The position numbers were made by a program, and so were the translations under genes. A stretch of 43,981 nucleotides of DNA from Deltaproteobacteria bacterium (GTDB lineage: Bacteria > Myxococcota_C > UBA6777). Positions 1 through 24,693 of this stretch are shown one piece after another. The stretch lies in the NCBI GenBank assembly GCA_002731275.1, contig PCBK01000071.1:1-43981 (forward strand), written 5' to 3'. Numbering within the stretch: the first letter of the stretch is position 1; each line of letters starts with the position of its first letter. Below the pieces are notes generated by a model. That model was not told where the DNA came from, ran no database searches, and saw only the letters and a program-made list of their open reading frames with translations.

Positions 1-388
1 CGAACTGTGCGAGGTGTGGGTGGATCAACTTGAGGGCATAGCGGCTCTCGCGTACGGTGTCGTAACACAAGAACACCTGCCCCATCCCTCCTTGGCCCAG
101 TTGTCTTTCCAGGTAATATCGCCCCAACAGGTACTGACCAGCGGTGATAGATTGTGGTCCAGGGTGATGGAATTGTGCATCGAGAGGAGTCAGTGAACGC
201 CTCATATGGGGGGCGGGGTGTTGGCCCACAGCAGGTTGAGATTGCGAAACCGGCACAGGAGAAGGAGCGGGATTGAGTTGCGCAAGCAACACTCGCTTTG
301 TCTCCTGAAATTCTTCCTTGGTCAAGCCACCAATCTTGTGCAGCTCAACTAGGTCTCTAAGAACGTTGAATAGATCTTCTCGGCTCAT
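1..388 (-). CDS. Ser/Thr protein kinase, N-terminal part (cut by window edge)
   Basis: Reading the minus strand from an ATG at 388 gives 129 codons that stay open to the window edge. Residues 1-38 form a short helical segment of the SHOCT type (hydrophobic residues, then HKIGGLTKEEF and KRVLLAQL), followed by a Pro/Gln-rich linker. Around residue 90 a Hanks-type kinase domain begins: YLERQLGQGGMGQVF is the glycine-rich ATP loop and YALKLI holds the ATP-anchoring lysine. The catalytic loop lies outside the window, so activity cannot be judged. A GAGG stands 11 bases before the ATG. The gene follows the histidine kinase by 80 bases on the same strand, so a shared signalling operon is likely. 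Bacterial kinases of this family phosphorylate Ser/Thr on target proteins; the substrate is unknown. Confidence 0.85.
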   Translation of the reverse strand, partial: MSREDLFNVLRDLVELHKIGGLTKEEFQETKRVLLAQLNPAPSPVPVSQSQPAVGQHPAPHMRRSLTPLDAQFHHPGPQSITAGQYLLGRYYLERQLGQGGMGQVFLCYDTVRESRYALKLIHPHLAQF

Positions 389-15024: not shown

Positions 15025-17247
15025 GTGACGGCCAAAAAACAAAGCAGCACCATAGACATCATCGAAGGGAAGCAGCTCGCGCGACACATGACCCCACCCT
15101 CCCTTCCTGCAGCCTGGCCAAACCAACTCAACGCATACCCCATCGCGATCTGTCAGCTCGACAAAAACGGTAGGTTCGAGCACATCAACGAACACTGTCA
15201 GGCACTCCTCGGCTGGGAAGAAGAAGGACTCTTAGGGCAACCCTTATATAAGCACTTGTCCCCAGCCTCCCCAACCCCCAACCAGCAAGATTTTCTCGCA
15301 CACTCTCAGACAGCATACACGTTCCAACACAAAGACGAACGTCCCGTCACATGCCGACTGACTCTGCTCCCCTACCAGATCAAAGACGCGCTGCACTATC
15401 TCGCCTTTTTGCAACCAATCGTCGAGTTCACATCTTCCCCGTATCTTCCAGCGATCCCAGAGACCACAACACACAACCACATCCACAAACAACTCGTCGA
15501 GCAAGCTGGCGATGTGATCTTGTTGCACGCGATAGACGGAAATATCCAGTACGCCAACCCCGCGACGACGCTTCTACTCGGCTATCGCGCCGAAGAAGTG
15601 CTGCAATTGGCAGACACGCTGGTCCAATTGATCCACCCAGAAGATCGACATATCACACGAAAAGCCCATGCATCCGTCAAGAATGGACAGTCAGGCGTCC
15701 ACACCTTCCGCTTTAAACACCAGGAAGGCCACTACATCTGGCTCGAATCTCGAGTCTCCCCTCTGACCGACACACATGGCAAGATCTGCGGATTTCACAC
15801 CTTCTCTCGCGACGTCACGACACGCAAAGAAGCCGAAGAGCAGATGCAGCTCGACCTCGACCGACTCGAATACCTCGCACAACACGACTCACTGACGGGG
15901 CTCCCAAACAGGGTCCTCTTTCAGGACCGACTCAAGCAGGCGATTTTGCAAGCACGACGTGAACAAAAAATGGTCGCGATGTTGTGTTTTGATCTCGATC
16001 GGTTCCAGCGCATCAATGATACACTCGGACGCGCAAGTGGCGACTCACTCCTTCACGCTGTCGCCAGTCGACTCAAACAATGTATCCGCGAAGGCGACAC
16101 CCTCACGCGCCCAGGTGGTGATGAGTTTGCCTTTATCCTGCCCGGCCTCAATGACCCCCAAGAAGCCGTACGCATCGCACAAACACTCCTCAACTCGTTG
16201 CAAAAACCATTTGTGATCAGTGGACATGAGGTGTTCCTTACAGCGAGCGTCGGGATCAGCATCTTCCCACTCGATGGAGATGATCTTGAAACTCTACTGA
16301 TCCGCGCCTACAATGCGATGTATCAGGCCAAAGAGCAGGGAAAAAACACCTTCCATCTTTACACCTCGGCGATGAACGTCGTGGCGTTTGAACGTCTCGC
16401 CTTTGAAAATAGTCTGCGTCGGGCCATTGAACGAGAACAACTGACCCTCTACTTTCAACCTCAAGTCGAGATCGTCGAGTCCATCTCATTCGATTACTTT
16501 TCGGACAAACCCTACCACGCAACGCCCGCCACCACGCAATACAAAGTGGTCGGTGCAGAAGCGCTTTTGCGTTGGCAGCACCCCGACCTTGGGCTCGTCT
16601 CCCCAGGTCGCTTTATCCCTATCGCAGAAGCCAGCGGTTTGATCGTCCCCATGGGAGAATGGGTCCTGCGTGAAGCCTGTAAGCAAGCCAAGAAATGGCA
16701 AGATCAAGGACTGCGTGACATCCACATCTCGGTCAACCTCTCTCCCTCCCAATTTCAACGCCCCAACCTCATCGAGATCGTCGCCTCAGCACTTGAAGAG
16801 AGTCAACTCGACCCCAGATACTTGGAGTTGGAGATCACCGAAAATATCTTCATGCACGATGATGAAGTCACGCGGCAGAAAATGCAGATGCTCTGTGACA
16901 TGGGGATCTCGATCGCGATCGATGACTTTGGTACAGGATACTCCAGCCTCTTGTATCTCAAACGATTCCCCATCCAGATCCTCAAGATCGACAAGTCCTT
17001 CATCATGAACTTGAGCGAAAACCCCAATGACGCCGCCATCACGAAAGGAATCATCGCGATGGCACACAGCCTCGATCTCAACGTCGTCGCAGAAGGTGTC
17101 CAAGCCAGAAATCAGCTCAACTACCTGCGCTCTTTGCAGTGTGATCGTATTCAAGGCTACATCTTCAGCCGCCCTATCCCTAACGACGAATTTGTCGAGT
17201 TGCTCAAAGAAGAATCACTCACCCCTCACCCTGTCTCAACCCCCTAA
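15025..17247 (+). CDS. PAS-PAS-GGDEF-EAL cyclic-di-GMP enzyme
   Basis: A 740-aa protein without membrane segments. Two PAS domains: residues about 35-130 (ICQLDKNGRFEHINEHCQALLGW) and 150-275 (ILLHAIDGNIQYANPATTLLLGY ... RDVTTRKEAEEQ). The GGDEF domain (about 285-450) has an intact GGDEF (364-368) and a product-inhibition RxxD (REGD) five residues before it. The EAL domain (about 465-735) has EAL at 512-514, NLSPSQF, LEITEN, IDDFGTGYSS, LKIDKSF and VAEGV, so both synthesis and breakdown of c-di-GMP look possible. Between QPQVEI and VVGAEALLRW there are about 28 residues where about eight are usual. The start is GTG 15025, nine bases after GAGGA. Its own promoter lies at 14933. Confidence 0.92.
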   Translation: MTAKKQSSTIDIIEGKQLARHMTPPSLPAAWPNQLNAYPIAICQLDKNGRFEHINEHCQALLGWEEEGLLGQPLYKHLSPASPTPNQQDFLAHSQTAYTFQHKDERPVTCRLTLLPYQIKDALHYLAFLQPIVEFTSSPYLPAIPETTTHNHIHKQLVEQAGDVILLHAIDGNIQYANPATTLLLGYRAEEVLQLADTLVQLIHPEDRHITRKAHASVKNGQSGVHTFRFKHQEGHYIWLESRVSPLTDTHGKICGFHTFSRDVTTRKEAEEQMQLDLDRLEYLAQHDSLTGLPNRVLFQDRLKQAILQARREQKMVAMLCFDLDRFQRINDTLGRASGDSLLHAVASRLKQCIREGDTLTRPGGDEFAFILPGLNDPQEAVRIAQTLLNSLQKPFVISGHEVFLTASVGISIFPLDGDDLETLLIRAYNAMYQAKEQGKNTFHLYTSAMNVVAFERLAFENSLRRAIEREQLTLYFQPQVEIVESISFDYFSDKPYHATPATTQYKVVGAEALLRWQHPDLGLVSPGRFIPIAEASGLIVPMGEWVLREACKQAKKWQDQGLRDIHISVNLSPSQFQRPNLIEIVASALEESQLDPRYLELEITENIFMHDDEVTRQKMQMLCDMGISIAIDDFGTGYSSLLYLKRFPIQILKIDKSFIMNLSENPNDAAITKGIIAMAHSLDLNVVAEGVQARNQLNYLRSLQCDRIQGYIFSRPIPNDEFVELLKEESLTPHPVSTP

Positions 17248-22295: not shown

Positions 22296-22452
22296 GTCTG
22301 CATGGCTTTGATACACGTCACACCCAACGCAACAAACATGTCCCCTCATGTAGACCGACATGCAGGGGAATGCGATCAAAGCCGTTCGACTGGAACATGG
22401 ATGCTCCTCCCTGTCAAAGGGAACGCCCAACGACGAGAAGACGAGTACAGTC

Positions 22453-24693
22453 ATGGCAAGTGATTCTTTCGGCGAATTTCTGATTCAGGAAGGTTGGATT
22501 CGTCGAGAACAATTGAATATGGCGATCGCTCTCCAACAAGAGATTGGTGGAGATATTGGTGAAGTCCTCGTAGCGCTCTCCATCCTGACCAGCCAACAAG
22601 TCAGTAACATCCGCAGAAAATGGATGGATGACAACACGATCGCGATCCCACTTGTACCTGCTCCCCAAGAGTTTCTCGCCTCGTTTGGCATTGAGTCCCC
22701 ACCCGATCTTGTCTCACTCGAAAAACTTTTCGCGTTGGACATCAGCACAACGCTCCTCAGCAGTCTCCCCTACAAAGAGGCGCTCTCACACAAAGTCCTG
22801 TTGCGCAAAATCGATCGAAACCACAAGCTGCTTTACATCACCGCCTCCGAAAAACTTCCAGAGGAGATCGCGGAGTGGTTAAAACAAGAGGCCAACGCAG
22901 AATTTCTGCACTACGAATTCGCAGCTGAAGAAGACCTCATCACAGCCATCCGGTATCATTACGGTCGGGATCTCCAACCCAAGCTCCCCAAGCCAACTAG
23001 CAATGTAGGCTCCCACCTTCCCTCCCTTTCGGACATCGTGTCCCAAAACTTTGACAAAACAGAGGTCATCCCAACCGTCCCACCACCCGACTACCTGCTC
23101 GCGATGGCCCCACAACGCGCCCCACGCCCAAACGAGGCCCACAAAAACGAAAGATCCCCCGGACACAATCGCCCCTCCTCTGGCTACACGATGGCCCCCC
23201 CACAACAAGGGACCAACTCGTACAAAACCTATCCCCCCCAACAACAGGCTCCAAACAGACGTCCACCCTCTCACGAAGAGATCGCGAGACAAGTTCCAAA
23301 CCGAAGAAGACAACCCTCTCACGAAGAGATCGCGAGACAAAGAGCGCCACAACAAAGACCCCCCTCTCACGAAGAGATCGCGAGACAAAGAGCACCACAA
23401 CAAAGACCACCACAGCGCCCTTCTTCAGGCTATGCGACGACACCTCGTCCAGGGCAACGTCCCTCTTCAGGCAACGCGACCATCCCTCGTCCAGAGCAAG
23501 GTTCCGGCTCCTTTAGAACATACCCAGAGCAAGGCTCTGGGACGTTCAGAGCCCACCCAGACCACCAGTCAGGTTCACATCGCACATATCCTCCTCGACA
23601 ACAGACACCTGAGCGGAGACCCCCTTCTCACGAGGAGATACAGAGACAGATACACCGCAGACCTCCTTCTCATGAAGAGATCGCGAGGCAAAGAGCACCC
23701 CAACAGAGAGCGCCACAACAGAGACCACCCTCTCATGAAGAGATCGCGAGGCAAAGAGCACCACAGCAGAGGCCACCACAACGTCCTTCCTCCGGTTATG
23801 CAACGACGCCTCGTCCAGGACAACGTCCTTCCTCCGGTTATGCGACGACGCCTCGTCCAGAGCAACGGCCCTCTTCAGGCAACGCAACCATCCCTCGTCC
23901 AGAGCAAGGTTCCGGCTCCTTCAGAACGTATCCAGAGCAAGGCTCCGGGACGTTTAGAGCCCACCCAGACCACCAGTCAGGTTCATATCGCACATATCCT
24001 CCTCAACAACAGGCACCTGAGCGGAGACCCCCTTCTCACGAGGAGATACAGAGACAGGTACACCGCAGACCTCCTTCTCATGAAGAGTTACAACGGCAAG
24101 GTCTCGGACCACAAAACACCGCACAAAACCCAGCATCAAGATACACCCCAGCTCGTCCATCGTCTGGATATACCTCCGTCCCGACACCAGCCCCCTCGGC
24201 ACCAGAGGAAGACGCGAACGCACAGGAAGACTCGCAAGACTTGGGAATGCACTACACGAAGCACCGCATCCCACCAAGGCGACCTGTGACACCAAAGAAA
24301 ACAGATCTTCCACCGTCCTCAGAGTCAGCGCCTCCAGCGAAGATACCAACCGTCGTGGGGACCCTCTCATCCGACTCACTGCCAGCAGCCAATGTAGAGG
24401 AACAAGAGCCCAACCCCAAAGGACAAAAGCGCGCCTCGTTGGATGCTATTCTTTCGCAGTACGAAGCCCCTCATAAGGAGAGCATCTCACAATACTCGCT
24501 CAACGCAACGGGGCATAAAGAGCGTGTCCACATCCGCAAACCAAACTCCGCTCCCAAACCGCAGATCATGAGGCGCAAACCTCGCTCAGGACAAGAAGAC
24601 GATAGCCCCCCAGAAGGTACAGGCGAACGCATCACGCCTAACTTCTCTCGTGCTCGTCGCCCCCGCCTCATCCCCAAAGACGACAAAAAGTAA
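22453..24693 (+). CDS. MshEN (GspE N-terminal) domain protein with long Pro/Arg/Gln repeat tail
   Basis: A 746-aa protein without signal peptide or membrane segments. Residues 1-60 carry two motifs like those with which MshEN domains bind c-di-GMP (FGEFLIQEGWIRREQL and IGEVLVALSILTSQQV); the usual leading Arg-Leu is Ser-Phe in the first and Asp-Ile in the second. Residues 85-175 match the rest of the GspE_N/MshEN fold (LEKLFALDIS ... DLITAIRYHYG). No ATPase domain follows. Residues about 210-590 are disordered repeats: eight PSHEE(I/L) units and seven PSSG units separated by RAPQQ, PRPEQ and QGSGSFRTYP-type blocks. The C-terminal 150 residues are acidic, then basic (SRARRPRLIPKDDKK). The frame opens at 22360; ATG 22453 begins the domain. 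Function unknown; a c-di-GMP-responsive scaffold is an inference. Confidence 0.8.
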   Translation: MASDSFGEFLIQEGWIRREQLNMAIALQQEIGGDIGEVLVALSILTSQQVSNIRRKWMDDNTIAIPLVPAPQEFLASFGIESPPDLVSLEKLFALDISTTLLSSLPYKEALSHKVLLRKIDRNHKLLYITASEKLPEEIAEWLKQEANAEFLHYEFAAEEDLITAIRYHYGRDLQPKLPKPTSNVGSHLPSLSDIVSQNFDKTEVIPTVPPPDYLLAMAPQRAPRPNEAHKNERSPGHNRPSSGYTMAPPQQGTNSYKTYPPQQQAPNRRPPSHEEIARQVPNRRRQPSHEEIARQRAPQQRPPSHEEIARQRAPQQRPPQRPSSGYATTPRPGQRPSSGNATIPRPEQGSGSFRTYPEQGSGTFRAHPDHQSGSHRTYPPRQQTPERRPPSHEEIQRQIHRRPPSHEEIARQRAPQQRAPQQRPPSHEEIARQRAPQQRPPQRPSSGYATTPRPGQRPSSGYATTPRPEQRPSSGNATIPRPEQGSGSFRTYPEQGSGTFRAHPDHQSGSYRTYPPQQQAPERRPPSHEEIQRQVHRRPPSHEELQRQGLGPQNTAQNPASRYTPARPSSGYTSVPTPAPSAPEEDANAQEDSQDLGMHYTKHRIPPRRPVTPKKTDLPPSSESAPPAKIPTVVGTLSSDSLPAANVEEQEPNPKGQKRASLDAILSQYEAPHKESISQYSLNATGHKERVHIRKPNSAPKPQIMRRKPRSGQEDDSPPEGTGERITPNFSRARRPRLIPKDDKK
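23266..24094 (+). repeat. In-gene tandem duplication with nested 14-codon repeats
   Basis: Inside the repeat-tail gene a block of about 400 bases is present twice in tandem. The segment starting GTTCCGGCTCC at 23501 returns at 23909, an offset of 408 bases, with only scattered, mostly silent differences over about 180 bases. The second copy carries an extra 42-base unit (codons for RPSSGYATTPRPEQ). Smaller 42-48-base units around PSHEEIARQRAPQQRP are nested in it. All offsets are multiples of three, so the frame is kept. Confidence 0.9.

Follow-up and report, generated by a model that had tools for sequence, protein, structure and literature searches.

A Kinase-less MshEN Protein with a Disordered Tail and an Array of PSHEE Peptides in a Deltaproteobacteria Bacterium

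The gene at 22453-24693 (+) in the 43,981-nucleotide stretch analysed here (the window), part of contig PCBK01000071.1 from a Deltaproteobacteria bacterium, is an open frame of 746 amino acids that joins an MshEN head to a long disordered tail. We propose, with a probability of roughly 0.45, that this protein belongs to a lineage-specific MshEN signalling family, of which it is a kinase-less member, and acts as a multivalent docking scaffold or adaptor; the scaffold role, the docking and the partners are what we infer. New here are an MshEN protein that lacks a kinase and carries a selected array of predicted helical peptides, and a candidate tail motif that may extend across the family. The features on which this proposal draws are collected in Table 1.

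Table 1. Features of the gene at 22453-24693 and the evidence used to place them
Feature	Coordinates	Strand	Basis
MshEN head, residues 1-181	22453..22995	+	AF2 model; PDB matches MshE, PilF, PilB, XpsE; NCBIfam NF053729
c-di-GMP motif I, residues 5-28	22465..22536	+	alignment, residue table
c-di-GMP motif II, residues 34-57	22552..22623	+	residue table
Insert between head subdomains, about 24 residues	22627..22698	+	alignments, low pLDDT; exact edges alignment-dependent
Disordered tail, residues 183-746 (564 residues)	22999..24690	+	AF2 full length, charge-hydropathy, composition
PSHEE unit 1, PSHEEIARQ	23266..23292	+	sequence
PSHEE unit 2, PSHEEIARQ	23314..23340	+	sequence
PSHEE unit 3, PSHEEIARQ, predicted helix	23362..23388	+	sequence, AF2
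PSHEE unit 4, PSHEEIQRQ, predicted helix 393-400	23623..23649	+	sequence, AF2
PSHEE unit 5, PSHEEIARQ, predicted helix 407-413	23665..23691	+	sequence, AF2
PSHEE unit 6, PSHEEIARQ, predicted helix	23728..23754	+	sequence, AF2
PSHEE unit 7, PSHEEIQRQ, predicted helix 529-535	24031..24057	+	sequence, AF2
PSHEE unit 8, PSHEELQRQ, predicted helix 543-548	24073..24099	+	sequence, AF2
Internal duplication, copy A, 273 nt	23407..23679	+	93% identical to 23815-24087; dN/dS 0.17
Internal duplication, copy B	23815..24087	+	nucleotide comparison with copy A; dN/dS
SSDSLPA, sole copy of S-x-[DE]-[SNAQ]-[LI]-P in the protein	24367..24387	+	motif scan

The MshEN head and its relatives

A preliminary description of this DNA had recognized an MshEN-like domain in the N-terminal 175 or so residues, followed by no secretion ATPase, and both points hold. 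The structure prediction it had proposed gives an MshEN fold for residues 1-181 at a mean pLDDT of 87.4 (AF2 model, alignment of 30 family sequences), with the two subdomains typical of MshEN at residues 1-60 (N) and about 84-177 (C). The clear PDB matches are all MshEN-type N-domains, namely GSPII-A and GSPII-B of PilF, MshE (5HTL), PilB and XpsE; the model aligns to 5htl with a Z of 9.9 over 131 residues (rmsd 7.3, the subdomain orientation being uncertain) and to the XpsE, PilF and PilB structures with a Z of 9-10. The NCBIfam model NF053729, 'c-di-GMP_motif', scores 44.6 bits against a cut-off of 38, and Pfam MshEN (PF05157) reaches 15.5-19.9 bits, below its cut-off of 23.1. By sequence the head is a divergent MshEN member, and as modelled it is a complete MshEN domain. 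Its inter-subdomain insert is absent from every aligned paralogue and modelled with low confidence. An alternative start at 22360, which would add 31 residues, was dropped, as paralogue heads begin at about the 22453 position. A Pfam scan found no ATPase, Walker A motif, kinase or other domain downstream of the head, which places the protein outside the GspE/PilB/MshE ATPases with their C-terminal, Walker A-containing ATPase domain.

The closest relatives of the head are found on Ser/Thr kinases. In our tree it groups with eight MshEN-kinase heads, to which it is 28-34% identical, with support of 93/89, just under the tool's starred threshold. Like the protein described here, the MshEN-zinc ribbon-Ser/Thr kinases of this genome and family (L084, L085, L086, L088, L099 and L113) have disordered tails, some of them with S-x-D-x-[LI]-P; the 746-residue protein differs from them in lacking the zinc ribbon, the kinase domain and the C-terminal transmembrane helix, and in having its own head insert and a unique PSHEE array. 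No remnant of a kinase is found in the gene, and there is no Cys for a zinc ribbon.

Searches for an orthologue were uniformly negative: a protein search among 98 genomes, a search of GTDB contigs with the head, one of plasmids, and a search of the family genomes with the tail all found none, four family genomes being covered. The CMD-rSAM-rSAM operon upstream of the gene is conserved in genome G001 at 67-82% identity, and no MshEN-tail gene follows it there. Rfam models detect no RNA element in the gene region, and a promoter scan found no sigma-70-like promoter, though a TATAAT is visible at about 22290. Since the head groups with kinase heads, and neither an orthologue nor a kinase remnant is found, the protein is, on sequence grounds, a kinase-less paralogue of the MshEN-kinases, arisen by loss or exchange of the C-terminal part.

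The disordered tail and its motifs

The tail, with a pLDDT mostly of 40-60 in the full-length AF2 model, is rich in Pro (17%), Arg (12%), Ser (10%) and Gln (10%), and contains neither Cys nor Trp. The preliminary description had reported about 380 residues of Pro/Arg/Gln/Ser repeats; a disordered repeat tail is indeed present, its repetitive stretch measuring about 350 residues within 564 disordered ones. Its count of eight PSHEE(I/L) units is exact: seven end in Ile and one in Leu, with their serines at residues 273, 289, 305, 392, 406, 427, 528 and 542. In the full-length model six of the eight units form short helices, and little else in the tail is helical. The predicted helices fit the sequence, in which Pro-Ser with a Glu three positions later makes up a known N-cap pattern for helices. 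Only this protein has the PSHEE array, the search of the family genomes with the tail having found it in no other, and there are thus no further carriers from which to guess a partner.

Repeats within the tail allow its selection to be examined, the comparison being one between internal copies since the protein lacks an orthologue. Two 273-nt copies, 408 nt apart, differ with a dS of 0.21 and a dN of 0.036 (dN/dS 0.17, p 0.0003), a pair of 156-nt blocks with a dS of 0.90 and a dN of 0.022 (dN/dS 0.025), and three compared PSHEE units show no nonsynonymous change against 5-6 synonymous ones. Because changes between duplicated blocks are mostly silent, the tail is very probably translated in the frame of 22453-24693, with its amino acids kept by purifying selection.

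A second element, S-x-[DE]-[SNAQ]-[LI]-P, is shared with other tails of the MshEN family. It occurs 21 times in 10 MshEN proteins against 0.8 times in block-shuffled tails, although 5 of the 21 copies sit in one kinase and two carriers, L108 and L122, are orthologues; carriers make up 10 of 40 non-ATPase MshEN proteins against 0.7 in shuffles, a number that none of 1000 shuffles reached. This ordering is the commonest among all orderings of its tokens in the non-ATPase MshEN proteins. Within the source genome the motif is found in 6 of 16 MshEN proteins against 1 of 301 control ORFs (p 4e-8), the controls being drawn from sampled genome regions and not matched for disorder, which makes the enrichment figures optimistic, and in 2 of the 28 kinases with the strongest kinase domains. 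The statistics are optimistic also because the motif was first spotted by eye in the tails and then counted. A DNA-level genome count of S-x-D-S-L-P-[AV] gave no excess (30 against 29 in the control), and as this loosely defined pattern takes no account of reading frame, the protein-level test replaced it. The carriers are L084, L085, L093, L094, L095, L108, L111, L118, L122 and L182, along with the copy at 24367-24387.

The same tail admits a different reading, in which the MshEN-headed Ser/Thr kinases have the protein as their substrate or decoy: its related head would bring it to these enzymes, and its tail, rich in Ser, Thr and Arg (RPSSGYATTPRP, RRPPSHEE), would be phosphorylated at multiple sites to form a phospho-scaffold. 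The kinship of the head to kinase heads in the tree is consistent with this, as are the many Ser and Thr residues with Arg and Pro neighbours in the conserved repeats and a genome encoding at least 150 Ser/Thr kinases. The PSHEE serine, however, would also fit the N-cap position of a helix, in which case no phosphorylation is needed to account for its conservation, and we regard the substrate reading as rather unlikely. With its 150 or more Ser/Thr kinase domains the source genome (G000) has an unusually large kinome, and the edge of the contig itself (window 1-184, -) holds a probable Ser/Thr kinase gene fragment, with weak tblastn matches to several kinases.

The c-di-GMP site

MshEN domains bind c-di-GMP through two 24-residue motifs, RLGxx(L/V/I)2xxG(L/V/I)2xxxxLxxxLxxQ, in which changing a single one of the conserved hydrophobic residues costs more than 10-fold in affinity (Wang et al. 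2016, PMC5013675). In the head described here motif I is mostly intact (G7, L10, G14, L21, I25 and Q28), with its leading Arg and Leu replaced by Ser5 and Phe6, a change that the preliminary description had correctly noticed. Motif II is degenerate: the equivalents of Arg38, Leu39, Gly47, Leu54, Leu58 and Gln61 are D34, I35, S43, V50, R54 and W57, and of six key positions Gly36 alone, the equivalent of Gly40, is strictly kept. The head thus does not carry the two intact motifs of a c-di-GMP receptor. Vibrio cholerae MshE (PDB 5HTL) shares with it the fold of both subdomains, the layout of motif I and a 5-residue spacer, while the protein studied here differs in having no ATPase, a degenerate motif II and neither leading Arg.

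The pilus ATPase PilF of Thermus thermophilus offers two precedents (PMC11731258). Its GSPII-B domain binds c-di-GMP at nM affinity without the Arg, so the lost leading Arg of our head is not decisive. Its GSPII-A domain (PDB 9G1W), the best Foldseek match of the head, likewise combines one near-perfect with one degenerate motif and does not bind c-di-GMP, although it is part of a pilus ATPase and is not joined to a disordered tail. Because motif II is degenerate and GSPII-A provides this precedent, binding of c-di-GMP by the head appears unlikely; in the residue comparison the idea is weakened mainly by motif II and less by the lost Arg-Leu. NCBIfam nonetheless still labels the head a c-di-GMP-binding domain. 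Two kinase paralogues from sister genomes, L099 and L113, keep near-complete sites, and the ligand site may therefore have been lost in this protein rather than never present.

These observations bear on the proposal of the preliminary description that the protein is a c-di-GMP-responsive scaffold or condensate former, in which a ligand on the head would alter the exposure or clustering of the tail. The scaffold part remains plausible, the fold and the disordered repeat tail being supported, whereas responsiveness to c-di-GMP finds no support in a motif pattern like that of GSPII-A. In favor of a response to c-di-GMP are the NCBIfam score, the largely intact motif I, the dispensable Arg of GSPII-B and a GGDEF-EAL enzyme encoded in the window; against it stand the missing equivalents of G47, L58 and Q61 in motif II, the more than 10-fold cost of single hydrophobic changes (PMC5013675) and the failure of GSPII-A to bind (PMC11731258). 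The GGDEF/EAL gene that the preliminary description had placed 5 kb upstream is present at 15025-17247, ending 5.2 kb upstream with three other genes between, and nothing ties it to 22453-24693. We consider a c-di-GMP-responsive protein unlikely. That the gene is a decaying remnant, an MshEN-kinase gene minus its kinase with expanded repeat junk for a tail, would agree with the missing orthologue and the degenerate head motif but is very improbable, because the tail copies are under strong purifying selection and the 746-codon frame is intact, with a well-predicted head and no kinase remnant.

MshEN proteins as a signalling family

Fusions of MshEN to Ser/Thr kinases, REC and other non-ATPase domains were reported in 2016, as were up to 22 MshEN copies in Myxococcus xanthus (PMC5013675). 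The 10.75 Mb genome studied here has 22 MshEN profile matches, 13 of them above the cut-off, and about 20 MshEN-type domains in all, many on non-ATPase proteins. Alongside ATPases of the PilB/GspE-like and cNMP-PilT types, it encodes MshEN-zinc ribbon-Ser/Thr kinase-tail-TM, MshEN-HD-REC-DUF4388, MshEN-coiled coil and MshEN-HEAT architectures and acidic-tail proteins, and several of these groups are common to all or most of five family genomes, the named ones being recorded as Myxococcota or Deltaproteobacteria MAGs. Members of the coiled-coil group (L090/L100/L105/L114/L119) and the HEAT group (L092/L116) resemble the protein described here in combining an MshEN head and a long disordered region with no ATPase or kinase; they differ in ending with a coiled coil or a HEAT-like part and in occurring in more than one genus, where the present protein is found in one genome. 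The MshEN-disordered-HD-REC-DUF4388 proteins (L087, L103, L109 and L111) are conserved across genera, their N-terminus being nearly identical between the source genome and G002/G004. Two PilT-like ATPases (L010 and L011) begin with a cyclic-nucleotide-binding-like domain, after which comes the C half of an MshEN domain, and a 2-oxoglutarate dehydrogenase E1-like gene (L147:16411-19837, -) also appears, by reading, to encode a cyclic-nucleotide-binding-like domain near its N-terminus.

An MshEN-zinc ribbon-Ser/Thr kinase gene lies divergent from pilB in all five family genomes (L089, L098, L104, L110 and L112), in each case separated from it by one gene, which is ribF-like where read. Because the kinase neighbours pilB in 5/5 genomes, this arrangement suggests a pilus-linked kinase and ties the family to pili.

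In the scaffold model that we favor, the head has probably ceased to read c-di-GMP and would work as a protein-protein module, docking to other MshEN-family members or partners such as MshEN-kinases or PilB-type motors. The tail would present eight short helical PSHEE[IL]xRQ peptides spaced by Pro/Arg/Ser, and add one S-x-D-S-L-P motif in common with other family tails. By recruiting multiple molecules of one partner simultaneously, the PSHEE array would make the protein a soluble multivalent scaffold or adaptor. A broader and more speculative extension, which we put forward as quite unlikely, is that MshEN in this Myxococcota lineage serves as a general docking head, in several members no longer coupled to c-di-GMP, within a network wired by tail motifs (S-x-[DE]-[SNAQ]-[LI]-P shared, PSHEE[IL]xRQ arrayed here) in which this protein is a dedicated multivalent hub.

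The usual view of MshEN is of a switch by which c-di-GMP acts on motors. The present genome has distributed the domain among kinases, response regulators and disordered proteins, and in several of these the ligand site has eroded; the protein described here is a clean case, with a head, a selected repeat tail and no enzyme. If docking is its true role, it would be a mistake, within this group, to label all MshEN proteins c-di-GMP receptors. The shared tail motif would supply a concrete rule, open to testing, for how a bacterial signalling network is wired.
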